The notes under the pieces are model-generated. The model was not told the origin of the DNA. It did not search any database and saw only the letters and a program-made list of their open reading frames with translations. A program made the position numbers and the translations under genes. Shown here in pieces: positions 5,231 to 18,048 of a stretch of DNA of 64,000 bases. Location: NCBI GenBank assembly GCA_017555695.1, contig JAFZFX010000009.1:31107-95106 (forward strand), read 5' to 3'. The stretch comes from Alistipes sp. GTDB lineage: Bacteria > Bacteroidota > Bacteroidia > Bacteroidales > Rikenellaceae. Every line of letters begins with the position of its first letter. The first letter of the stretch is position 1.

Positions 5231-6304
5231 ATGGAGAGAATCAGAATATATCAGTTTACCGACCCCACCTGCATCTGGTGTTGGGGCAACGAGCCTGCAA
5301 TCAGGGCGTTGGACTATCTTTACGGCAGCAAGATAGATATAGAATTCATCATGGGCGGACTCGTCGAGGATATCTACACGCTCTACAACATCGAGGGTAG
5401 CCGCCAGCACATACTCGACTGCGCCAACGCCCGAATCACCGACACCTGGCGTGCCGCCTCGAAGTGCCACGCGATGCCCATCAGAGAGGGTGCCGTGGCG
5501 CTCTACAACGAGAACTACACTTCGAGTTTCCCGCAGAACATAGCCTACGAAGCGGCCAAACGCATCGACCGCCAGAAGGCCAAACACTTTCTGCGACTGC
5601 TACGCGAAGCGACCTTCACCGAGGGTAAGCGCACCTCGCAGATTGATGTGCTGATTGAGTTGGCCGCGAAGGCGGGAATCGACGCCACGCAGTTCATCGA
5701 CGCCTACACCAACGGCGACGCGCAGGCCGACTTCCTGAGCGACAGGATGCTCTGCCAGCGCAATGGCATCACGGGCTTCCCATCGTATATGATTAAGTAC
5801 AACGACACGAGCATCATACTCGGTGGATATCAGAATCTTGATACATTCCACAACATCATAGCACGCCTATCGGGTGGCAAGGTAAAACCCAAGAAGGCGG
5901 GCCCCTCGCTGGCCAATGTACGCGAATTCATCAACCACTACGAGAGGGTCTATCCCGTCGAGATTGAGACCGCCTTTGGCCTCGACAAGGCGGCCACCGA
6001 CCTGATGATAAGCAACCTTATCGAGGATGGCAGCGTAGCAACAACCCCCATTGGACAAGGACAAAGACTTTCGTTGTCGGGCGCATACCGCACGGCACAA
6101 CACAATAAAAAATTTAATTATAAAACTATGGAAAAGAAAGAGTTGAAAACAACAGCCACAAAGGCCGAAAACGCAGCAACCAAATCAGCAGCCGAAAAGT
6201 CGGCTACAAAGGCCTCTGCAGAGAAGTGTACAACAAAGGGTTGTGGCACATCGAAGCCCAAGGCTACCACTGCGAAGAAGGAGAAGCAGACCGTTAAGGC
6301 ATAG
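5231..6304 (+). CDS. DsbA-family (FrnE-like) oxidoreductase with a Lys/Ala-rich C-terminal tail
   Basis: Thioredoxin-fold protein of the DsbA/FrnE group. The redox motif CIWCWG is at about residues 13-18, followed by a helical insert, and the cis-Pro loop ITGFPSYMIKY lies near residue 180. With no signal peptide it should be cytosolic. I chose ATG 5231 because the fold begins at once (MERIRIYQFTDPTC); an upstream in-frame ATG at 5183 is less likely. Residues 235-290 (VREFINHYERVYPVEIETAF...) look like an extra helical domain. From residue 300 (an in-frame ATG at 6128) the protein becomes a low-complexity Lys/Thr/Ala tail with two Cys. The DNA just before that ATG is A/T-rich like an intergenic leader, so tail and enzyme may be a recent fusion or a read-through pair. 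Confidence 0.75.
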   Translation: MERIRIYQFTDPTCIWCWGNEPAIRALDYLYGSKIDIEFIMGGLVEDIYTLYNIEGSRQHILDCANARITDTWRAASKCHAMPIREGAVALYNENYTSSFPQNIAYEAAKRIDRQKAKHFLRLLREATFTEGKRTSQIDVLIELAAKAGIDATQFIDAYTNGDAQADFLSDRMLCQRNGITGFPSYMIKYNDTSIILGGYQNLDTFHNIIARLSGGKVKPKKAGPSLANVREFINHYERVYPVEIETAFGLDKAATDLMISNLIEDGSVATTPIGQGQRLSLSGAYRTAQHNKKFNYKTMEKKELKTTATKAENAATKSAAEKSATKASAEKCTTKGCGTSKPKATTAKKEKQTVKA

Positions 6305-6353: not shown

Positions 6354-6395
6354 GGGGTTGTCCAGCAATTTGTCGGACAACCCCTTATTTTTAGA
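6354..6395 (+). terminator. Rho-independent terminator, GGGGTTGTC family
   Basis: Arms GGGGTTGTCC and GGACAACCCC pair over 10 bp with an 11-base loop, followed by TTATTTTT. Near-identical hairpins recur at 35534 and 58490. Ends transcription of the DsbA-like gene before the ilv leader. Confidence 0.88.
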
Positions 6396-6551: not shown

Positions 6552-6583
6552 CTTGTTTTTAATATTTTTTACTATTATATTTG
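6552..6583 (+). promoter_or_regulatory. Promoter of the ilv-leu operon
   Basis: TATATTTG at 6576-6583 matches the Bacteroidetes -7 form TAnnTTTG exactly. CTTG at 6552-6555 stands 20 bases upstream in the place of the -33 TTTG box. Transcription should start near 6590, giving a leader of roughly 225 bases before ilvD. The early leader also holds a hairpin with arms GGTGTTT (6616-6622) and AAACACC (6631-6637). Confidence 0.7.
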
Positions 6584-6665
6584 CAGTGTAGTTAGGTTTT
6601 TTAGGTGAAATGAGGGGTGTTTTAGCCCCGAAACACCGTAAAAGTTAGGTAATTTAAGTTAATTT

Positions 6666-6722
6666 ATGAATAGCTGTTTGTATATTATTATCAACCTAAT
6701 CCTCGTGGTCTTGCGTAGATAA
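6666..6722 (+). CDS. Branched-chain amino acid leader peptide (attenuator peptide)
   Basis: An 18-codon frame, ATG to TAA, encodes MNSCLYIIINLILVVLRR. Ten of the 18 codons are Ile (4), Leu (4) or Val (2), clustered as Ile-Ile-Ile-Asn-Leu-Ile-Leu-Val-Val-Leu at codons 7-16. These are exactly the end products of the operon that follows. The stop codon lies 2 bases before the first arm of the antiterminator, so a ribosome reaching it would cover that arm. The arrangement parallels the enterobacterial ilv and leu leader peptides; homology is not implied. The peptide itself probably has no other role. Confidence 0.85.
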   Translation: MNSCLYIIINLILVVLRR

Positions 6723-6724
6723 CG

Positions 6725-6794
6725 GGAGAAAGGTTGTATGTATACAGTAGCTGAATTATACCAAGCCTTTCTCCTTGCTGGAGAAAGGTTTTTT
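6725..6794 (+). promoter_or_regulatory. Transcription attenuator of the ilv-leu operon
   Basis: Three arms are visible. A: GGAGAAAGG at 6725-6733. B: CCTTTCTCC at 6766-6774. C: GGAGAAAGG at 6780-6788, followed by TTTTTT (6789-6794). A and C are identical, and both pair perfectly with B over 9 bp. B:C with its 5-base loop and T-run is an intrinsic terminator, and A:B is the competing antiterminator. If ribosomes stall on the Ile/Leu/Val codons (6684-6713), A is free, A:B forms and transcription enters ilvD. If they reach the stop codon (6720-6722), A is masked and B:C terminates. The geometry is seen directly; the mechanism is inferred from known attenuators. Confidence 0.85.
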
Positions 6795-6814
6795 AGTTAA
6801 AAACAAGGTTAGTG

Positions 6815-8638
6815 ATGAAACATCAATTACGAAGCGCAGTAACCACCGTAGGACGCCGTATGGCTGGCGCGAGAAGTCTTTGGAGAGCAAACGGAATGAA
6901 GAAGGAGCAGATGGGTATGCCTATCATCGGCATCGCCAACTCTTTTACGCAAATGGTTCCGGGACATGTACATCTGCACGAGATTGGCCAGTATGTAAAG
7001 CAACTCATCGAGGAGCAGGGCTGTTTCGCCGCCGAGTTCAATACCATCGCCATCGACGATGGTATCGCAATGGGCCACGACGGTATGCTCTACTCGCTGC
7101 CTTCGCGTGACATCATTGCCGACAGCGTAGAGTACATGGCCAACGCCCACAAAGTGGACGCACTGGTTTGCATCAGCAACTGCGACAAGATTACGCCCGG
7201 TATGTTGATGGCATCTATGCGACTGAACATCCCCACAATCTTCGTTTCGGGTGGTCCGATGGAGGCTGGCGTATTCCGTGGCCGTGGCGCCGACCTGATT
7301 GACGCTATGGTATTGAGCGCCGACGAGAAGTGTACCGACGAGGATGCCGACGAGATTGAGGCTTCGGCTTGCCCTGGTTGCGGCTCTTGCTCGGGTATGT
7401 TTACCGCTAACTCTATGAACTGTCTGAACGAGGCTCTGGGTCTGGCTCTGCCTGGCAATGGTACTATCGTTGCCACACACGAGAATCGCAAGGCTCTCTT
7501 CGAGAAGGCTGCCCGCATCATCGTCGAGAATGCCAAGCGCTACTACTTCGAGGGTGACGACAGCGTTCTGCCCCGCTCTATCGCAACAAAGGCTGCCTTC
7601 GAGAATGCTATGTCGCTCGACATCGCTATGGGTGGCTCTACAAACACCGTACTGCACCTGCTGGCCGTAGCTCACGAGGCTGGTGTAGATTTCACAATGG
7701 CCGACATCGACCGTCTTTCACGCATGATTCCCGTACTCTGCAAGGTGGCACCCAACGGACACTACCACATTCAGGATGTGAATCGCGCTGGCGGTATTAT
7801 GGGCATCTTGGGCGAGCTCTCTCGCAATGGTCTTATTGACTCTACAGCCCGCCGAGTGGATGCAGCATCGTTGGCCGACATTCTGGATAAATACTACTTC
7901 GGTTCGGAGAATTTCTCTGACGAGGCACGCAAGATATATTTGAGCGCCCCCGCCAACCGCTACAGCCGCGTGATGGCGTCACAGGCCACCTACTACAAGG
8001 AGATGGACGACGACCACGCCGAGGGTTGCATCCGCGACTTCGACCACGCCTACTTCCGTGACGGAGGTCTGGCAGTGCTGACTGGTAACATCGCCCGCAA
8101 GGGTTGTATCGTGAAAACTGCAGGTGTGGACAAGAGCCTGATGCAGTTCAGCGGCAAGGCCAAGGTATTCGAGTCGCAGGAGCAGGCTATGAATGGCATC
8201 CTGGGTGGCGAGGTAGAGGCTGGCGATGTGGTTGTCATTCGCTACGAAGGTCCGAAGGGTGGCCCTGGTATGCAGGAGATGCTCTACCCCACTTCGTACC
8301 TCAAGTCGAAGCATCTGGATAAGGCGTGTGCGCTGATTACCGACGGCCGCTTCTCTGGTGGAACATCGGGTCTGTCGATTGGCCATGTATCGCCCGAGGC
8401 CGCATCGGGTGGTGAGATTGGTATCATCAACGATGGTGACATCATTGACATCAACATCACCGAGCGCTCGATTAACCTGCGCATCAGCGAGAGCGAACTC
8501 AGCGAGCGTATGGCCGCGTGGACTCTGCACGCTCCCGTAAACCGCGACCGTGTGATACCGCAGTCGCTCCGTGCATACTCACTGCTCGTCTCGTCAGCTG
8601 ACCAGGGCGCAGTAAGAATCCTGCCCGACGAGAAATAG
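6815..8638 (+). CDS. ilvD: Dihydroxy-acid dehydratase
   Basis: Fe-S enzyme that dehydrates dihydroxyisovalerate and dihydroxymethylvalerate to the 2-keto acids of valine and isoleucine. Length 607 aa is normal. Cluster ligands are Cys 123 ([12 protein letters not shown]) and the [12 protein letters not shown] stretch near residues 185-194; [10 protein letters not shown] near 270 and GRFSGGTSG near 510 are further signatures. Start ATG 6815 ([11 protein letters not shown]) fits the family better than the adjoining GTG at 6812. First gene of the operon, 20 bases after the attenuator T-run. Confidence 0.97.
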
Positions 8639-8673: not shown

Positions 8674-10410
8674 ATGATTTCAGGTTTTTCAGATAATAGT
8701 GTCGCAGAGCAGCCCAAGAAGGATTTGCCACGCATCTCGGGTGCAGAGGCGGTTATCCGCTCTTTCATCGAGGAGGGTGTGGAGACAATCTTCGGTTACC
8801 CTGGAGGTGCCATCATCCCCGTATACGATGCTCTGTACGACTATCAGGATAAGTTAAATCATATTCTAGTGCGTCACGAGCAGTGTGCGCTGCACTCGGC
8901 ACAGGGCTATGCCCGCGCCAGCGGCCGCACAGGAGTCTGCATCGTAACATCGGGCCCTGGTGCTACAAACACCGTGACAGGTTTGGCCGATGCTATGCTC
9001 GACTCAACGCCCGTGGTACTCATCAGTGGTCAGGTGGCATCAAGCACACTCGGTACTGACGCCTTTCAGGAGATTAACTTCTTGGAGATTACACAATCAG
9101 TCACAAAGTGGAATTGCCAGGTGAAGCGCGCTGAGGATATCCCCGCCGCCATCGCCAAGGCCTTCTACATCGCATCAAGCGGACGCCCCGGCCCCGTAGT
9201 GGTGGATATCACGAAGGATGCACAGAATGGCCTGCTCGACTTCGAGTACAAGCCCGTTAAGTTCATACGCAGCTACCAGCCCTACCGCGAGATTGACAGC
9301 GACCAGATTCTGGAGGCTGCACGATTGATAAACCTCTCGAAGAAGCCCATGGCTCTCATCGGTCAGGGTGTTATCCTGGGAGGTGCCGAGAAGGAGCTCA
9401 AGGAGTTCCTGGAGAAGAGCGGTATGCCCGCCGCAGCTACACTGCTGGGTCTGTCGGCTCTGCCCTCTGACCACCCGCAGTATGTGGGTATGCTCGGTAT
9501 GCACGGCAACTATGGCCCCAACATCAAGAACCGCGACTGCGATCTGCTGGTTGCCATCGGTATGCGTTTCGACGACCGCGTGACGGGCGATGCTTCGCAG
9601 TTTGGTATCAACGCCAAGGTGGTGCATCTCGAGATCGACCCCGCCGAGGTGAACAAGCTGGTATATGCCGATGTTCCCGTTATTGGCAATGTCAAGGAGT
9701 CGCTGCCACTGCTCACCGAGAAGATCTCAAAGAAGGAGCATACAAAGTGGCTCGACGAGTTCCGCGTATGCTACAACATCGAACGAGAGGATATCATCGA
9801 ACCAGCTATTGCACGCCGTGGCCCGCATCTGAGAATGGGCGAAGTGGTGGATGCCGTAGCCAGCCGATTCGACGACGCCATCCTCGTTACGGATGTGGGT
9901 CAGCAGCAGATGTTCGCATCGCGCTACTTCAAGTTCAAGCAGACACGTAGCATCATCACATCGGGCGGTCTGGGTACAATGGGCTTTGGCCTGCCCGCAG
10001 CCATCGGCGCAAAGATTGGCGCACCCGAGCGAGATGTATGCCTGTTCGTAGGTGACGGAGGTCTGCAAATGACATCGCAGGAGCTGGGCACAATCTACCA
10101 GTCGCAGGTGGGAGTGAAAATCATCCTGATGAACAACGGCTACCTGGGTATGGTGCGTCAGTGGCAGGAACTCTTCTACAACCGTCGCTACTCGTTCACC
10201 GAGCTGACAAACCCCGACTTCGAGTTGCTGGCAAAGGCCAACCGCATACCCTACCGTTGCGTTGAGCGTCACGAGGATTTGGACGAGGCCATAGCCGAGA
10301 TGAAGGCAACAGAGGGTGCATTCCTGCTGGAGGTGAGAGTCGAGAAGGAGGAGAATGTATTCCCGATGGTACCCGCAGGACAACCCGTAACTAACATCCG
10401 ATTGGAGTAA
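8674..10410 (+). CDS. ilvB: Acetolactate synthase large (catalytic) subunit
   Basis: ThDP-, FAD- and Mg-dependent enzyme forming acetolactate or acetohydroxybutyrate, the first common step of Val/Leu/Ile synthesis. Three domains are visible in 578 aa. The N-terminal PYR domain has the activating Glu in RHEQCALHSAQGYAR and the GGAIIPVYD loop. A central FAD domain follows (ARLINLSKKPMALIGQG). The C-terminal ThDP domain has GDGGLQMTSQELGT and ends its metal site in MNNGYLGMVRQWQ. About 25 extra N-terminal residues precede the conserved start. IlvN follows 15 bases downstream. Confidence 0.97.
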   Translation: MISGFSDNSVAEQPKKDLPRISGAEAVIRSFIEEGVETIFGYPGGAIIPVYDALYDYQDKLNHILVRHEQCALHSAQGYARASGRTGVCIVTSGPGATNTVTGLADAMLDSTPVVLISGQVASSTLGTDAFQEINFLEITQSVTKWNCQVKRAEDIPAAIAKAFYIASSGRPGPVVVDITKDAQNGLLDFEYKPVKFIRSYQPYREIDSDQILEAARLINLSKKPMALIGQGVILGGAEKELKEFLEKSGMPAAATLLGLSALPSDHPQYVGMLGMHGNYGPNIKNRDCDLLVAIGMRFDDRVTGDASQFGINAKVVHLEIDPAEVNKLVYADVPVIGNVKESLPLLTEKISKKEHTKWLDEFRVCYNIEREDIIEPAIARRGPHLRMGEVVDAVASRFDDAILVTDVGQQQMFASRYFKFKQTRSIITSGGLGTMGFGLPAAIGAKIGAPERDVCLFVGDGGLQMTSQELGTIYQSQVGVKIILMNNGYLGMVRQWQELFYNRRYSFTELTNPDFELLAKANRIPYRCVERHEDLDEAIAEMKATEGAFLLEVRVEKEENVFPMVPAGQPVTNIRLE

Positions 10411-10425
10411 GAAAGGAGCAAAGAG

Positions 10426-10962
10426 ATGGAAAAAGAGTTTATCATAACAATATTTTCGGAGAACACGGTCGGATTGCTCAGTCAGATTACAACCGTCTTC
10501 ACACACCGTAATGTAAACATCGAGTCGTTCACCGCCTCGGAGTCGGCTATCGAGGGTATCTACAAGCATACCATCATCGTCAAGAACGATGCCGAGAAGG
10601 TGGCCAACCTGGTGAAGCAGATTGAGAAGAAGATTGATGTGCTGAAGGTATTTTGCTACAGCCCCAACGAGGTGGTATTGCAGGAGTTGGCACTCTACAA
10701 GGTGCAGCGCAGCCGCAATGTCGAGGAGTTGGTTAGACGACACAATGTGCGTATTCTGGATATCCACGACGACTACATCGTGCTGGAGAAAACGGGCCAC
10801 AAGGAGGAGATTCGCGAGCTCTACAAGATGCTGGAGCCCTACGGCGTTTACCAATTTGTCTGCTCGGGACAGGTGGCCATCATCAAGTCACAGCGCGAAT
10901 TGCTGAGCGAGTATCTCGAGTATGTGGACCAAAGACAGAAGCAGATTGAGAATAACGAATAG
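10426..10962 (+). CDS. ilvN: Acetolactate synthase small (regulatory) subunit
   Basis: Regulatory partner of IlvB that confers valine feedback and stimulates catalysis. The 178 residues begin with an ACT domain (FIITIFSENTVGLLSQITTVFTHRNVNIESF), followed by the family's C-terminal domain (VLQELALYKV...ILDIHDDYIVLEKTGHKEEI). The usual order ilvB-ilvN is kept. An A-rich 60-base gap separates it from ilvC, with no visible terminator or TAnnTTTG promoter. Confidence 0.95.
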   Translation: MEKEFIITIFSENTVGLLSQITTVFTHRNVNIESFTASESAIEGIYKHTIIVKNDAEKVANLVKQIEKKIDVLKVFCYSPNEVVLQELALYKVQRSRNVEELVRRHNVRILDIHDDYIVLEKTGHKEEIRELYKMLEPYGVYQFVCSGQVAIIKSQRELLSEYLEYVDQRQKQIENNE

Positions 10963-11022
10963 ACCTAAATAACAAATTGAACAACAAATAATTAATAATA
11001 TAAACAAAAAAACTACAGAATT

Positions 11023-12069
11023 ATGGCAAAGATGAATTTCGGCGGCGTAGAGGAAAATGTCGTAACACGCGAGGAGTATCCATTGGCAAAGGCTTTGGAG
11101 ACATTGAAGGATGAGACAATCGCTATCATTGGTTATGGTGTACAGGGCCCTGGCCAGTCACTCAACCTTCGTGACAACGGTTTCAATGTAATCGTAGGTC
11201 AGCGTAAGGATTCAAAGAGCTGGGACAAGGCCGTAACAGACGGTTGGGTTCCTGGTGAGAACCTCTTTGACATCGAGGAGGCTTGCGAGAAGGCTACAAT
11301 CATCGAGTACCTGCTTTCTGATGCTGGTCAGATTGCTGTTTGGCCCACAATCAAGAAGCACCTTACTCCTGGTAAGGCTCTCTACTTCTCACACGGTTTC
11401 GGTATCACTTACAAGGAGCGCACAGGTATCGTTCCTCCCGCTGATGTTGATGTTATCTTGGTTGCTCCCAAGGGTTCAGGTACATCACTCCGTCGTATGT
11501 TCTTGCAGGGCCGTGGCTTGAACTCAAGCTACGCTATCTTCCAGGATGCTACTGGCAAGGCTTGGGACCGCGTAATCGCACTCGGTATCGGTGTTGGTTC
11601 AGGTTACCTCTTCGAGACTACATTCAAGCGTGAGGTTTACTCTGACCTTACAGGTGAGCGTGGTACATTGATGGGTGCTATCCAGGGTATCTTCGCTGCA
11701 CAGTACGAGGTATTGCGTCAGAACGGCCACACACCCTCTGAGGCTTTCAACGAGACAGTAGAGGAGCTCTCACAGAGCCTTATGCCTCTGATCGCCGAGA
11801 ACGGTATGGATTGGATGTACGCTAACTGCTCTACAACAGCACAGCGCGGTGCGCTCGACTGGTGGAAGAAGTTCCGCGATGCAACTCGTCCCGTATTCGA
11901 GGAGTTGTACAGCGAAGTAGCGTGCGGTAACGAGGCACAGCGCAGCATCGACACCAACTCACAGCCCGACTATCGTCAGAAGTTGGAGGAGGAGCTCAAG
12001 GAGATGCGCGAGACAGAGATGTGGCAGGCTGGTGCCGTTGTACGCAAACTCCGTCCCGAGAACAACTAA
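11023..12069 (+). CDS. ilvC: Ketol-acid reductoisomerase
   Basis: NADPH- and Mg-dependent enzyme converting acetolactate into dihydroxyisovalerate, and the ethyl analogue for isoleucine. It is a short form (348 aa). The Rossmann loop is IIGYGVQGPGQSLNLRDNG, followed by VGQRKDSKSW; the metal and catalytic region is GSGTSLRR...GERGTLMGAIQG and AFNETVEELSQS. By eye it resembles the mitochondrial fungal enzyme Ilv5 (ending REKLEKEL...VRKLRPEN) more than E. coli IlvC. Codons ending in T for Gly, Ala and Val are more frequent than in neighbouring genes, suggesting strong expression. Confidence 0.96.
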   Translation: MAKMNFGGVEENVVTREEYPLAKALETLKDETIAIIGYGVQGPGQSLNLRDNGFNVIVGQRKDSKSWDKAVTDGWVPGENLFDIEEACEKATIIEYLLSDAGQIAVWPTIKKHLTPGKALYFSHGFGITYKERTGIVPPADVDVILVAPKGSGTSLRRMFLQGRGLNSSYAIFQDATGKAWDRVIALGIGVGSGYLFETTFKREVYSDLTGERGTLMGAIQGIFAAQYEVLRQNGHTPSEAFNETVEELSQSLMPLIAENGMDWMYANCSTTAQRGALDWWKKFRDATRPVFEELYSEVACGNEAQRSIDTNSQPDYRQKLEEELKEMRETEMWQAGAVVRKLRPENN

Positions 12070-12151: not shown

Positions 12152-13648
12152 ATGAGCGAGAAAGTATATATATTTGACACCACATTGCGCGACGCCGAGC
12201 AGGTACCTGGTTGCCAGCTCAACACAATCGAGAAGATTGAGGTTGCGCGTCAGCTGGAGAAGCTGGGCGTAGATATCATCGAGGCGGGTTTCCCCATCTC
12301 AAGCCCTGGTGACTTCAACTCGGTGGTAGAGATTTCAAAGGCTGTGACTAACCCCACCATCTGTGCCTTGACGCGTGCCGTCAAGAAGGATATTGATGTG
12401 GCAGCTCAGTCGTTGGAGTTCGCCAAGCGAGGCCGAATCCACACAGGTATCGGCACCTCTACCTACCACATCTACGAGAAGCTGCGTATGACTCCCGAGA
12501 CCGTTCTGGAGCAGGCCGTAGAGGCTGTGAAGTATGCACGCCGATTCGTCGATGATGTAGAGTTCTATGCCGAGGATGCTGGCCGTACCGACGAGGAGTT
12601 CCTGGCACGCGTGGTAGAGGCTGTGATTGCAGCGGGTGCTACGGTTGTGAACATCCCCGACACTACGGGTTACTGTCTGCCGAGCGAGTATGGTGCCAAG
12701 ATTGCATATCTGAAGAACAATGTGCCCAACATCGACAAGGCCATCATCTCGACACACTGTCACAACGACCTGGGTATGGCTACGGCCAACACCTTGGCTG
12801 GTGTGCAGAACGGTGCGCGACAGGTGGAGGTTACAATCAACGGTTTGGGCGAAAGAGCTGGTAACACCGCTATGGAGGAGGTTGTAATGGCTATCAAGTG
12901 CCACTCTAACCTCGACTTCGAGGTGGGCATCGACTCAAAGCAGATTGTCACTACCAGCAAGTTGGTATCTAACCTTATGCGTATGCCCGTCCAGGCCAAC
13001 AAGGCTATCGTTGGTCGCAACGCATTTGCTCACTCGTCGGGTATCCATCAGGATGGCGTGCTTAAGAGCCGCGAGACATACGAGATTATCGACCCCGAGG
13101 ATGTAGGCATAGACCAGTCGAGCATCGTGCTCACAGCCCGCAGTGGCCGTGCTGCACTGAAGCACCACCTCGCCGAGCTCGGTTACACACCTGAGAACGA
13201 GGAGTTGGACGACATCTATCAGCGTTTCCTGGATTTGGCCGACAAGAAGAAGATGGTGACTACACGCGACCTAGAGGTGCTCATCGGCACAGCCTCATCG
13301 CGTCGTCGTATGAGCATACAGCTCACAGGCCTGCAGGTTGTCTGCGGTAAGTCGAGCATCCCTACAGCTACCGTACAGATTAGCTTCGATGGTGACACCT
13401 TCACCGAGACAGCGTGCGGTAACGGTCCCGTGGATGCAGCCATCACAGCCGTTAAGAACATCACCAAGCGCCGTGTCCACATCGAGGAGTTCCTCGTGCA
13501 GGCCATTACGCGCGGTAGCGATGACTTGGGTAAGGTACACATCCAGATTTCGCACAAGGGTAAGATTTACCACGGTTTCGGTGCAAATACCGACATCGTA
13601 ACAGCATCGGTGGAGTCGTTCATTGATGCAATATCGAAAATAGCATAA
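12152..13648 (+). CDS. leuA: 2-isopropylmalate synthase
   Basis: Claisen-type condensation of acetyl-CoA with 2-ketoisovalerate, the committed leucine step. At 498 aa it is the shorter LeuA type. The N-terminal HMGL-like TIM barrel opens with [12 protein letters not shown] (catalytic Arg and metal Asp) and has the metal site [14 protein letters not shown] near residue 205. [14 protein letters not shown] follows. The C-terminal leucine-responsive domain covers about residues 390-498 ([15 protein letters not shown]...). Citramalate synthase is a possible alternative, but leuCDB downstream supports LeuA. Confidence 0.94.
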
Positions 13649-13658
13649 TTAGCGACAG

Positions 13659-15053
13659 ATGAATACATTATTCGACAAAATATGGGATGCACACACCGTC
13701 AGAATGTTGGACGGAGCATCGTGTGTACTCTACATTGACCGTCAATACATACACGAGGTGACAAGCCCGCAAGCCTTTGCGGGTCTGCGCCGACGCGGCA
13801 TCGGGGTATTCCGTCCCGAGCAGGTGACGGCAAGTCCCGACCACAACATCCCCACACAGAATCAGCACCTGCCCATCTCTGAGCCGCAGTCAGCCGAGCA
13901 GGTTGCCACTCTGGAGCGCAACTGCGCCGAAAACAATATCACCATATTCCCCATCGGCTCGGAGCGCAACGGCATCATCCATGTGATTGGCCCGCAGACA
14001 GGACTCACACAGCCTGGCATGACCATCGTTTGTGGCGATAGCCACACCTCTACTCACGGTGCGCTGGGTTGCGTAGCCTTCGGTATCGGTACAAGCGAGG
14101 TGGAGATGGCGCTGGCATCGCAGTGTATCCTGCAATCGAAGCCGAAGAGTATGCGTATAAATGTCGAGGGTGAGTTGCGCGAGGGCGTATGCTCGAAGGA
14201 TATCATCCTCTACATCATCTCGAAGTTGGGCACAGGCGGTGGCACAGGCCACTTCGTCGAGTTCGCTGGCTCGGCTATCCGTTCACTCTCGATGGAGGCT
14301 CGTATGACAATCTGCAATATGAGTATCGAAATGGGAGCCCGTGGTGGTATGATTGCCCCCGACGAGGTGACATTCGAATACCTGAAGGGCCGCGAGTTCG
14401 CACCCAAGGGCGAGGAGTGGGATAAGGCCGTGGAGCGTTGGAAGAGCCTCAAGTCAGAGGATGATGCCATCTTCGACAAGGAGGAGACATTCGACGCTGC
14501 CGACATCGAGCCTATGATTACCTACGGTACAAACCCAGGTATGGGCATCGCCATCAACGCCGAGATTCCCTCGGCCGAGGGTCTTGACGAGGCATCGAAG
14601 GCTTCGTTCGACAAGGCGCTGGCTTATATGGGCTTCAACGCAGGCGAGAAGATGGCGGGCAAGAGAGTCGATTATGTATTCGTTGGCAGCTGCACAAACG
14701 GCCGTATCGAGGACCTGAGAGCCTTTGCTCACTTTGTTAAGGGTCGCAAGAAGGCCGACAGCGTGACGGCGTGGATTGTCCCTGGCAGCAAGGAGGTTGA
14801 GCGTATGGCTATCGAGGAGGGTCTGCGCGACATTCTTCAGGAGGCAGGCTTCGAGTTGCGCCAACCAGGATGCTCGGCTTGTCTGGCAATGAACGACGAC
14901 AAGATTCCCGCAGGCAAATATTGTGTAGCCACATCCAACCGCAACTTCGAGGGTCGTCAGGGCCCCGATGCTCGCACTCTGCTGGCAGGACCTCTGGTAG
15001 CAGCCGCAGCAGCGGTAACGGGCGTGGTAACCGACCCCAGAGAGTTGATGTAA
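13659..15053 (+). CDS. leuC: 3-isopropylmalate dehydratase large subunit
   Basis: Aconitase-family large subunit that isomerises 2- to 3-isopropylmalate together with LeuD. Fe-S ligands are visible: Cys in [12 protein letters not shown] near residue 345 and the pair in [10 protein letters not shown] near 408. [14 protein letters not shown] near 128 and [10 protein letters not shown] near 430 are further signatures. Length (464 aa) is standard. It starts 10 bases after leuA and is followed by leuD after 22 bases. Confidence 0.97.
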
Positions 15054-15075
15054 GAATATTCAGAAGTAAGCAATT

Positions 15076-15663
15076 ATGAGAAATAAATTCACTACACTCC
15101 AATCGACGGTGGTACCTCTGCCCATCGAGAATATCGATACCGACCAGATTATCCCCGCCCGCTTTCTGAAGGCCACCACACGCGAGGGCTTCGGCGAAAA
15201 CCTCTTCCGCGACTGGCGCTACGACAACAACGGAGAGCCCAAGGCCGACTTCGTGATGAACAACGCCACATACAAGGGTGAGATTTTGGTTGCAGGCAAG
15301 AACTTCGGTTGTGGCTCAAGCCGTGAGCACGCAGCGTGGGCCATCGATGGTGCTGGCTTCCGCGCAGTGGTATCGAGTTTCTTCGCCGACATCTTCCGTA
15401 ACAACGCCCTCAACAACGGACTCCTGCCCGTAACGGTGAGTGAGGAGATGCTGGCCGAGATTTTCAAGGCCGTAGAGGCTAACCCCGCAACAACGCTGAA
15501 GATTGACCTCAGCGAGCAGACTATCGAGATTGAGGGTCAGCCGATGAAGGAGAAGTTCGATATTACCCCCTACAAGAAGCAGTGTCTGATGAACGGATAC
15601 GACGATGTGGACTATCTGGTCAGCATACACGAAGAGATTGAGAATTACGAGAACGAGAGATAA
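15076..15663 (+). CDS. leuD: 3-isopropylmalate dehydratase small subunit
   Basis: Small subunit completing the LeuCD isomerase. Signatures are [20 protein letters not shown] at the N-terminus and [16 protein letters not shown] near residue 80, which closes over the substrate. The length of 195 aa is normal. It lies between leuC and leuB in the leucine segment of the operon. Confidence 0.97.
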
Positions 15664-15693
15664 CTCTCTTTGAACAAGCAAGATATTACGCAG

Positions 15694-16761
15694 ATGAAAA
15701 ATATTAAGATTGCTGTATTGCCAGGCGACGGCATTGGTCCCGAGATTGTAGCCCAGGCAGTGAAGGTTGTAGACAAAGTAGCAGCAAAATTCGATTACAA
15801 CATCGAGTACTCATACGGCATCGTGGGTGCCGCCGCTATCGATGCGGTGGGTGACCCCTACCCTGCCGAGACGCACGAGAAGTGTATGGCTGCCGATGCC
15901 GTTCTGTTCGGAGCGATTGGCGACCCCCGCTTTGACAACAACCCCGAGGCGAAGGTACGCCCCGAGCAGGGTCTGTTGGCTATGCGCAAGCAGTTGGGTC
16001 TCTATGCCAACCTGCGCCCCGTTACCACCTTCGAGTCGTTGCTCCACCGCTCGCCCCTGCGCTATGACCTGGTTGCAGGCGCCGACTTTATGTGCGTACG
16101 CGAGCTGACGGGAGGTCTCTACTTCGGTCGTCCGCAGGGCCGTTCAGAGGATGGTCAGACAGCATACGACACCTGCGTATATACTCGCAAGGAGATTGAG
16201 CGCATCTGCCGTCTGGGATTCCAGTATGCCGCCAGCCGTCGTGGCAAGCTGACCGTCGTGGACAAGGCCAATGTACTGGCTACATCGCGTCTGTGGCGTG
16301 AGACTGCCAAGTCAATGGAGAAGGATTACCCCAATGTGGAGGTCGAGTATATGTTCGTGGACAACGCTGCGATGAAGCTCATCCAGCAGCCCAGCCACTT
16401 CGATGTGATTGTGACCGAAAATATGTTCGGCGACATCCTCACCGACGAGGCGAGCGTAATCACTGGCTCGTTGGGTCTGTTGCCTTCGGCATCTATCGGC
16501 GAGGGCACATCGCTCTTTGAGCCTATCCACGGCTCATACCCGCAGGCTGCAGGCAAGAACATCGCCAACCCGATTGCCACTATTCTCTCGGCTGCGATGA
16601 TGTTCGAGTACGCCTTCTCGGATATGGAGGCGGGTGCCGCCATTCGCAAGGCCGTGGCTCTGTCGATTGAGCAGAACATCTCGACCGAGGATATCATCCC
16701 CGAGGGATGCCAGCCGCACTCAACAACTGAGGTGGGCGACTTTATTGCCTCACACATTTAA
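15694..16761 (+). CDS. leuB: 3-isopropylmalate dehydrogenase
   Basis: NAD-dependent oxidative decarboxylation of 3-isopropylmalate to 2-ketoisocaproate. Length 355 aa from ATG 15694 ([17 protein letters not shown]); a TTG eight codons upstream is in frame but less likely. Visible are ELTGGLYFG near residue 140, the catalytic Tyr region (YTRKEIERI), the metal-binding [15 protein letters not shown] near 245, and [18 protein letters not shown] near 275. Gap to leuD is 30 bases. Confidence 0.96.
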
Positions 16762-16782
16762 CCCCCAAAAACGCTTTCGATT

Positions 16783-18048
16783 ATGAGTAATGCGAACAAA
16801 TATTTTCCGGCTCTAAACGACATTATGACGGCAGAGCATACGCTGAGCGAGATTCTCTCGGCTACACCGCTTATGCATAATAGAAATCTGTCGGATAAGT
16901 TCGGAGCAGAGGTGATGCTCAAGCGCGAGGATTTGCAGATGGTGCGTTCGTATAAGATTCGCGGTGCCTACAACAAGATTCGCTCACTTACCGAGGAGCA
17001 GACCGCCCGCGGTATAGGCTGTGCGAGTGCGGGCAACCACGCCCAGGGTGTGGCACTGTCGTGCAACAAACTGCAAATCAAAGGCAAGATATTTATGCCT
17101 GTGACCACCCCCAAGCAGAAGATCAATCAGGTGAAGATGTTTGGCGGCGAGTTCGTCGAGGTGGTATTAGTGGGCGATACATTCGACCAGGCCAACACGG
17201 CAGCCATCGAGACCTGCCAGGCCGAGGGCAAGACATTCATCCCGCCCTTCAACGACCCCAAAATCATCGAGGGTCAGGGCACTGTAGGTCTGGAGATTCT
17301 GCAGCAGAGCAGAGCCGCTATCGACTATATCTTCGTTCCCATCGGAGGCGGTGGTTTGGCATCGGGCTTGGGTAGCGTATGCAAGATGATGTCACCCAAC
17401 ACCAAAATTATCGGCGTCGAGCCCGCAGGTGCTGCTGGCATGAAGCAGTCATTCGAGAAGGGCGAGGTAGTGGAGTTGGAACACATCGACAAATTCGTGG
17501 ATGGCGCAGCCGTACAGAAGGTGGGCGACATCACATTCGACATCTGCCGTCAGGTGCTTGACGATATCGTGGTTGTTCCCGAGGGCAAGGTATGTTCGAC
17601 AATTCTCAACCTCTACAACTTCGACGCTATCGTAGTTGAGCCCGCAGGAGCATTGAGCATCAGCGCCTTGGACTACTACCGCGACAAGATCAAGGGCAAG
17701 AATGTGGTCTGCATCGTCAGCGGCAGCAACAACGACATCGTGCGTATGGAGGATATCAAGGAGCGCTCGTTGCTCTATGAGGGACTGAAGCACTACTTCG
17801 TAGTACGCTTCCCGCAGAGAGCAGGTGCCCTGCAGAACTTCGTGAGCTATGTATTGGGCCCGCACGACGATATCACCTACTTCGAGTATAAGAAGAAGAC
17901 CAACCGCGAGAAGGGTCCCGTGCTGATTGGTATCGAGTTGCAGAACCTCAACGACTTCGAGGGTCTGACCGAGCGTATGCGTCAGAGCAACATCGACTAC
18001 GAATACCTGAACGACAACCCCAACCTCTTCGAGTTCCTGATTGGATAG
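16783..18048 (+). CDS. ilvA: Threonine deaminase (threonine ammonia-lyase)
   Basis: PLP enzyme making 2-ketobutyrate from threonine, the entry to isoleucine. PLP Lys is in MVRSYKIRGAYNK near residue 52; the phosphate-binding glycine loop is PIGGGGLASGLG near 188. At 421 aa it has one C-terminal ACT-like regulatory region (about 335-421, HYFVVRFPQRAGALQNF), unlike the 514-aa E. coli enzyme with two. Placement inside the ilv-leu operon argues for the biosynthetic role. Confidence 0.94.
   Translation: MSNANKYFPALNDIMTAEHTLSEILSATPLMHNRNLSDKFGAEVMLKREDLQMVRSYKIRGAYNKIRSLTEEQTARGIGCASAGNHAQGVALSCNKLQIKGKIFMPVTTPKQKINQVKMFGGEFVEVVLVGDTFDQANTAAIETCQAEGKTFIPPFNDPKIIEGQGTVGLEILQQSRAAIDYIFVPIGGGGLASGLGSVCKMMSPNTKIIGVEPAGAAGMKQSFEKGEVVELEHIDKFVDGAAVQKVGDITFDICRQVLDDIVVVPEGKVCSTILNLYNFDAIVVEPAGALSISALDYYRDKIKGKNVVCIVSGSNNDIVRMEDIKERSLLYEGLKHYFVVRFPQRAGALQNFVSYVLGPHDDITYFEYKKKTNREKGPVLIGIELQNLNDFEGLTERMRQSNIDYEYLNDNPNLFEFLIG

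Follow-up and report, generated by a model that had tools for sequence, protein, structure and literature searches.

Leader-peptide attenuation of the ilv, leu, thr, his, and trp operons is textbook knowledge in enterobacteria. A comparative survey of 2004 by Vitreschak and colleagues, whose abstract reportedly touches on Bacteroidetes/Chlorobi, could already contain ilv examples. In Rfam, the Bacteroid-trp family (RF01692) stands as a Bacteroidetes cis-regulatory RNA (PMC2864571). The attenuation passages of a Flavobacterium psychrophilum transcriptome study report strong clues for leader-peptide attenuation upstream of amino-acid biosynthesis operons; in those passages no ilv operon is named and no shared model is given (PMC9723704). 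A Bacteroides thetaiotaomicron map mentions short open reading frames (sORFs) reminiscent of leader peptides (PMC7366714). The window analysed here, a 64,000-nt stretch of Alistipes sp. DNA, carries ahead of its ilv-leu-ilvA genes what is, judging from sequence, very probably a classical ribosome-mediated transcription attenuator.

Results

Leader frame and segments upstream of ilvD

An 18-codon frame (MNSCLYIIINLILVVLRR) can be read from the sequence on the forward strand between the ATG at 6666 and the TAA at 6722, and ten of its 18 codons encode isoleucine, leucine, or valine (I/L/V). Codon use in 11 genes of the window puts CTA at 2.0% of Leu and GTC at 12% of Val; the leader has both. The earlier note on this DNA had reported this frame, three arms beginning at 6725, 6766, and 6780, and a run of six T, and on direct re-reading every one of these coordinates was right. 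It had further claimed that the two outer arms, A and C, compete for the middle arm, B. Folding bears this out: the A:B antiterminator (2:3) is predicted at −21.2 kcal/mol versus −17.9 kcal/mol for the B:C terminator (3:4), arm B is shared between them, and the A:B duplex was matched by 0 of 200 shuffles.

A predicted 1:2 hairpin is added here to the two competing hairpins, which makes four segments at the locus, not three. All lie on the forward strand. Segment 1 (6678–6710) consists of leader codons that pair in the predicted fold with segment 2 (6724–6747), whose arm A core (GGAGAAAGG, 6725–6733) starts two bases (CG) past the leader stop codon. Segment 3 (6761–6774) is arm B, with CCTTTCTCC at 6766–6774 as the partner of A or C. 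Segment 4 (6780–6794) is arm C, a second GGAGAAAGG at 6780–6788, with a U tract (T6, 6789–6794); it belongs to an intrinsic terminator predicted at 6763–6794, between the leader frame and ilvD. The 1:2 hairpin joins leader codons to arm A and to the bases 3′ of it, and 6666–6762 folds to −28.5 kcal/mol. Compared with dinucleotide shuffles, the fold of the 203-nt leader is better by 5.1 s.d. (z −5.1), and none of 200 shuffles equalled it. On the forward strand of the window, the arms form the sole triple of a 9-mer, its reverse complement, and the same 9-mer within 80 nt, and none arose in 20 block shuffles. Shine-Dalgarno mimicry was considered for arm A (AGAAAGG); purine-rich arms are expected anyway, because the arms must pair with I/L/V codons.

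The first structural gene is ilvD (6815–8638; Pfam ILVD_EDD_N and ILV_EDD_C), followed on the same strand by ilvB, ilvN, and ilvC (8674–12069, by Pfam) and by leuA, leuC, leuD, leuB, and ilvA (12152–18048; leuA over NCBIfam cut-offs, the others by Pfam family and gene order). The run ilvD-ilvB-ilvN-ilvC-leuA-leuC-leuD-leuB-ilvA has a single direction and is presumably one transcript. A promoter is predicted on the forward strand at 6553–6583, 82 nt 5′ of the leader frame (TTG at 6553–6555, a 20-nt spacer, and TATATTTG at 6576–6583), which fits the Bacteroidota consensus. All 28 loci of the Alistipes group, a label given by the names of the nearest named loci, have the pattern TTG-N18-22-TAnnTTTG no more than 140 nt from the leader, versus 0.23 expected from base shuffles. 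Taken together, sequence and comparison establish the frame, its conserved composition, the competing pairings as predicted, the promoter pattern, and the operon link.

Several other features surround the element. Between promoter and leader frame, the 5′ UTR has a further hairpin at 6603–6638 (GGTG..GGGG..CCCC..CACC); the sequence at this site differs in L002 and L003, yet it looks self-complementary there by eye. Upstream of the promoter, an intrinsic-terminator-like hairpin with a T-rich tail (GGGGTTGTCC..GGACAACCCC, 6354–6393, forward strand) was seen by eye and is absent from a hairpin scan with a loop limit of 8; it would mark the end of the upstream transcription unit. The open reading frame ending at 6304 has a thioredoxin-like domain and then a low-complexity tail rich in Lys, Ala, and Thr (6130–6304), and an in-frame ATG near 6129 could alternatively begin a separate small basic protein.

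Occurrence upstream of ilvD

Loci with ilvD (L001–L155) were gathered by searches at genus, family, and order level and from genome contigs. The sample took the best 26 of 55 other-genus family genomes with ilvD, the best 29 of 61 other order-level genomes with a match, and the best 80 of at least 583 named stretches. Upstream regions with the ilvD start numbered 153 (L018 and L113 were without it), and 145 distinct regions were left after removal of L066, which was too short, and seven repeats. Exact-repeat detection, which demanded perfect C arms, missed most true cases, and an energy-based terminator search was used instead. The rule was fixed: a frame with at least eight and at least 36% I/L/V residues, a terminator below −11 kcal/mol, and a stop no more than 90 nt from the terminator.

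By this rule a leader was found in 63 of the 145 distinct regions from these best-scoring loci, all of them Bacteroidota, and not in the other 82. The 63 include 17 of 17 loci of the genus (L001–L017), plus L019 and L020, 1 of 25 family loci outside the genus (L022–L046, from the best 26 of 55 genomes), 22 of 29 order-level loci (L127–L155, the best 29 of 61), and 21 of 71 loci from named stretches (the best 80 of at least 583). None was found at the 31 loci named as other phyla. The sORF screen alone called 66 of 145, and the count of 63 is preferred because those 66 include false calls, among them L006 (wrong frame), L069, L084, L090, and L098. The energy-based search in turn miscalled the hairpin or missed the leader at L021, L022, L023, L063 (GTG start), L138, L144, L147, and L149, which look right by eye and stand outside the 63. 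Seventeen of 61 congeneric genomes have ilvD, and each of the 17 has a leader match to the covariance model R1; the model's sole other match among those listed, in G024, is weak and lies by eye between non-amino-acid genes. Within the family the element appears patchy, L025–L046 (among the best-scoring loci) being without a recognisable leader.

Small indels shift the leader stop, giving TAA just before arm A versus TGA just after it (GGTGA), as in L012, L015, L016, L020, L054, L057, and L059 versus L014 and L055. Both positions would put a terminating ribosome over arm A. At L182 (G340) the leader lies, by eye, 3′ of a leuB-like gene, and the gene order around the attenuator differs.

Conservation of the pairings and ribosome position

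Of the 63 loci, 51 have an A:B pairing that five or fewer of 200 shuffles could match (none could in 32), and at the other 12 more than 5 shuffles matched it. When arms were exchanged between loci, the native A:B pairing was better than the swapped average at 55 of the 63 loci, with 28 of 35 for loci not in the Alistipes group, and no better than it at 8. As for the 1:2 hairpin, leader codons take up half or more of arm A in the minimum free energy structure at 63 of 63 loci, a raw count made without shuffle comparison; the z of the fold itself is below −1 in 47 of 63. Against 200 synonymous recodings, the same fold is more stable than their average at 60 of 63 loci (z < −1 at 49), and in 35 of 63 no more than 10 of the 200 recodings are as good as the native fold.

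In the consensus fold of 28 relatives, CTC GTG GTC (Leu Val Val) pair with ACGGG and GAT around the stop, which would explain why these bases are conserved as well as their meaning. The RNAalifold covariation term of that 28-sequence alignment is small (−1.4, with two-sided changes in 3 of 20 pairs) because the arms barely vary in it. Synonymous differences among 15 leaders amount to 0.337 versus a column-shuffle mean of 0.19, a value reached by 5 of 500 shuffles, and this signal is confounded in that leader codons are also constrained by pairing.

The leading edge of a ribosome lies 12 nt past the first base of its A-site codon, the value used in our stall scan. Arm A is wholly free in the scan with the A-site at codons 1–16; the I/L/V codons, ten in all, end at codon 16, and codons 17 and 18 are Arg. 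For a transcript that does not yet include arm C, the modelled probability of A:B is 1.00 at codon 16, 0.75 at codon 17, 0.39 at codon 18, and 0.01 at the stop. Across the 63 leaders, arm A is free at 688 of 724 I/L/V codons versus 405 of 609 other codons, and with positions permuted 200 times the count averaged 602 and never exceeded 617. In 56 of 63, half or more of arm A is masked when the ribosome sits at the stop. In the model, then, the control codons are placed so that a stalled ribosome frees segment 2 and a terminating one masks it; where the I/L/V codons lie with respect to arm A is established, and the 1:2 hairpin is established as a predicted fold. With no ribosome, equilibrium folding before arm C is made favours A:B (0.85), and translation-independent shut-off would therefore require the 1:2 hairpin to form first.

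Leaders before other operons

A second covariance model, R2, was built solely from ilvD leaders (n = 37) and run on 247 order-level and 296 phylum-level genomes at E ≤ 0.001. It matched in 74 order-level and 17 phylum-level genomes, with the window's genome and two others in both sets. Of the 125 distinct matches, 103 were read, 12 of which are training loci; the 22 not read are the window, 15 lying beside ilvD by coordinates, five tandem partners, and one antisense duplicate. The next gene is ilvD in 51 of the 103, leuA in 33, an ilvE-type gene followed by ilvD in 6, and ilvN and ilvB in 1 each, which makes 92 branched-chain cases. It is gltB in 3 and hisG, AK-HSDH, and trpE in 2 each, giving 9 more, and amino-acid biosynthesis genes thus follow 101 of the 103; the remaining 2 next genes are unrelated. 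The ilv and leu genes were identified by similarity to those of the window and the others by eye. NCBIfam confirms ilvE at L216 and trpE at L224, as well as leuA for five proteins in addition to that of the window. For two truncated proteins its best names, below cut-off, are bifunctional aspartate kinase/homoserine dehydrogenase (L223) and glutamate synthase (L235). L225 and L281 of the 103, and the genus-level match L184, were taken as false, lying by reading beside no amino-acid genes.

Peptide composition was compared in 78 of 84 ilvD and leuA loci, after two repeats, three non-ATG starts, and one locus without a clear leader were dropped. The frame used was the one whose stop is nearest arm A, chosen regardless of composition, and distinct peptides were kept. 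Valine makes up 188 of 957 residues in 45 ilvD leaders versus 15 of 700 in 32 leuA leaders; a per-leader rank test gives p = 2e-12, which is indicative, because the leaders are related. Val is absent from two of the 45 ilvD leaders and occurs twice in three of the 32 leuA leaders. Ile stands at 18% in ilvD and 21% in leuA leaders, and Leu at 16% and 21%. The 32 distinct leuA leaders, found among L203–L289, are Ile- as well as Leu-rich with little Val. That leuA here might be citramalate synthase, which could have accounted for their Ile codons, was rejected: six LeuA proteins (the window's plus five more) score above two cut-offs for 2-isopropylmalate synthase and do not reach the citramalate one. 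The composition suggests that leu operons with such leaders may answer to isoleucine too, perhaps as LeuBCD serve an isoleucine route. Elsewhere, MTINNTIITTIITTG and MTTNNTIIITIITTG open the Thr/Ile leaders of AK-HSDH genes, four consecutive Trp stand in the L224 leader upstream of trpE, and HHH or HHRH occurs in the hisG leaders.

Two attenuators in series before one branched-chain operon occur as paired matches at L186, L240, L249, L283, and L216, and by eye also at L217 and L218, each attenuator with its own terminator and an Ile-rich or I/L/V-rich leader. Tandem attenuators are known for Salmonella mgtCBR (PMC3641672). The matches L235, L247, and L279, all in genus g86, precede a gltB-like glutamate synthase gene, and their leaders have several Lys and His codons (MKTKHTSFANKHAYKHNKIVQ and others).

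Discussion

For the classical attenuation that we favour at this locus, the ribosome would translate the 18-codon peptide as RNA polymerase transcribes the leader. With ample charged Ile, Leu, and Val tRNA, it would reach the stop codon and cover arm A, B would pair with C, and transcription would end near 6790. If any one of the three charged tRNAs were short, the ribosome would stall on an I/L/V codon and open the 1:2 hairpin, and arm A, now free, would capture B before C is made. Once A:B had formed, the terminator would be blocked and the ilv-leu-ilvA genes transcribed. We infer that the peptide is translated, that ribosomes stall on it, that transcripts end at 6790, and that all three amino acids are sensed.

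Short open reading frames are common and hairpins with a U tract arise by chance (3 found in 1.4 kb versus 1.5 expected), so the locus might be thought a plain 5′ UTR terminator with a chance frame, arm A being an accidental repeat. However, the I/L/V-rich frame, the arms, and their spacing are kept across Bacteroidales, leader composition changes with the downstream operon, and the genes behind 101 of the 103 R2 matches read are for amino-acid biosynthesis; we consider a chance arrangement extremely improbable. The structured leader, the mutually exclusive hairpins, and the amino-acid operon downstream would suit a tRNA- or metabolite-binding riboswitch, T-box-like or other, to which the frame is incidental. 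Yet no Rfam family reaches its gathering score on the element, in the window or at 20 related loci, and a permissive scan of 6560–6830 yields just PyrR and L10 leader, far below cut-off. The T-box model has no match at gathering score in the 64 kb and none up to E 5 in 6560–6830. As the leader amino acids also track the operon, a riboswitch is exceedingly unlikely.

The peptide is hydrophobic, and its end (LVV and a short tail) is conserved in most leaders of the Alistipes group, which would fit an arrest peptide, a leader that mainly senses translation status or the nascent chain rather than the charging of Ile, Leu, and Val tRNA. Against this, the peptide sequence varies widely, but its I/L/V content and the position of those codons relative to arm A persist, and leuA leaders retain Ile and Leu but largely lose Val. 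We find an arrest peptide very unlikely.

Leader-peptide attenuation, the reading put forward in the earlier note, is supported by the comparative check run here: relatives retain the frame with its I/L/V codons as well as the arms that compete. That one peptide senses Ile, Leu, and Val fits the data and is probably correct. The view that such leaders are under-recognised in Bacteroidetes stands for ilv operons, with no Rfam family covering the element in the window, at the 20 related loci, or in the permissive scan of 6560–6830, and no description of an ilv attenuator in Bacteroidota found in the open-licence literature; it does not hold for attenuation in general, which had already been reported in the phylum. 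New relative to the note are the 1:2 hairpin, where exactly the control codons lie, leaders in relatives that match their operons, and the tandem copies.

On balance, we think it somewhat probable that Bacteroidota have widespread, largely uncatalogued leader-peptide attenuators of a common layout, whose peptide reads out the product of the operon: Ile/Leu/Val before ilvD, Ile and Leu with little Val before leuA, mostly Ile before ilvE-ilvD-type operons, Thr/Ile before AK-HSDH, and His before hisG, with two complete attenuators in series at some operons and, in one lineage, a leader containing Lys and His before gltB. If true, leu operons in Bacteroidota would answer to isoleucine as well as leucine, and tight transcription-translation coupling would be implied in a phylum where translation initiation relies little on Shine-Dalgarno pairing. 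Attenuation needs a ribosome close behind RNA polymerase, and conservation of the element is therefore evidence for such coupling. The covariance models find leaders for several amino-acid pathways, and peptide composition may predict the amino acids to which each operon answers. For a major group of gut bacteria, this offers a testable form of control over how branched-chain amino acids are made.

The mechanism is classical and has precedents in the phylum, where the class is sparsely catalogued. One is Bacteroid-trp: its match at L290, like the ilv leader, has a frame, there with adjacent Trp codons, and then a terminator hairpin, but it concerns another amino acid and operon. RF01692 is over cut-off in 3 of 60 order-level genomes, has no match in the window, at L001 and 19 other loci, or in G000, and misses the trpE leaders L224 and L227. 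Among enterobacterial systems, the E. coli ilvGMEDA leader ilvL likewise has Ile, Leu, and Val codons, the 1:2, 2:3, and 3:4 logic, and an operon with ilvD; it has 32 residues versus 18 here, and unlike that operon the present gene run adds leuA, leuC, leuD, and leuB. E. coli leuL and thrL follow the same logic. The Thr/Ile leaders before AK-HSDH (L223 and L226) resemble thrL, whereas the leuA leaders described here differ from leuL in carrying Ile besides Leu codons.
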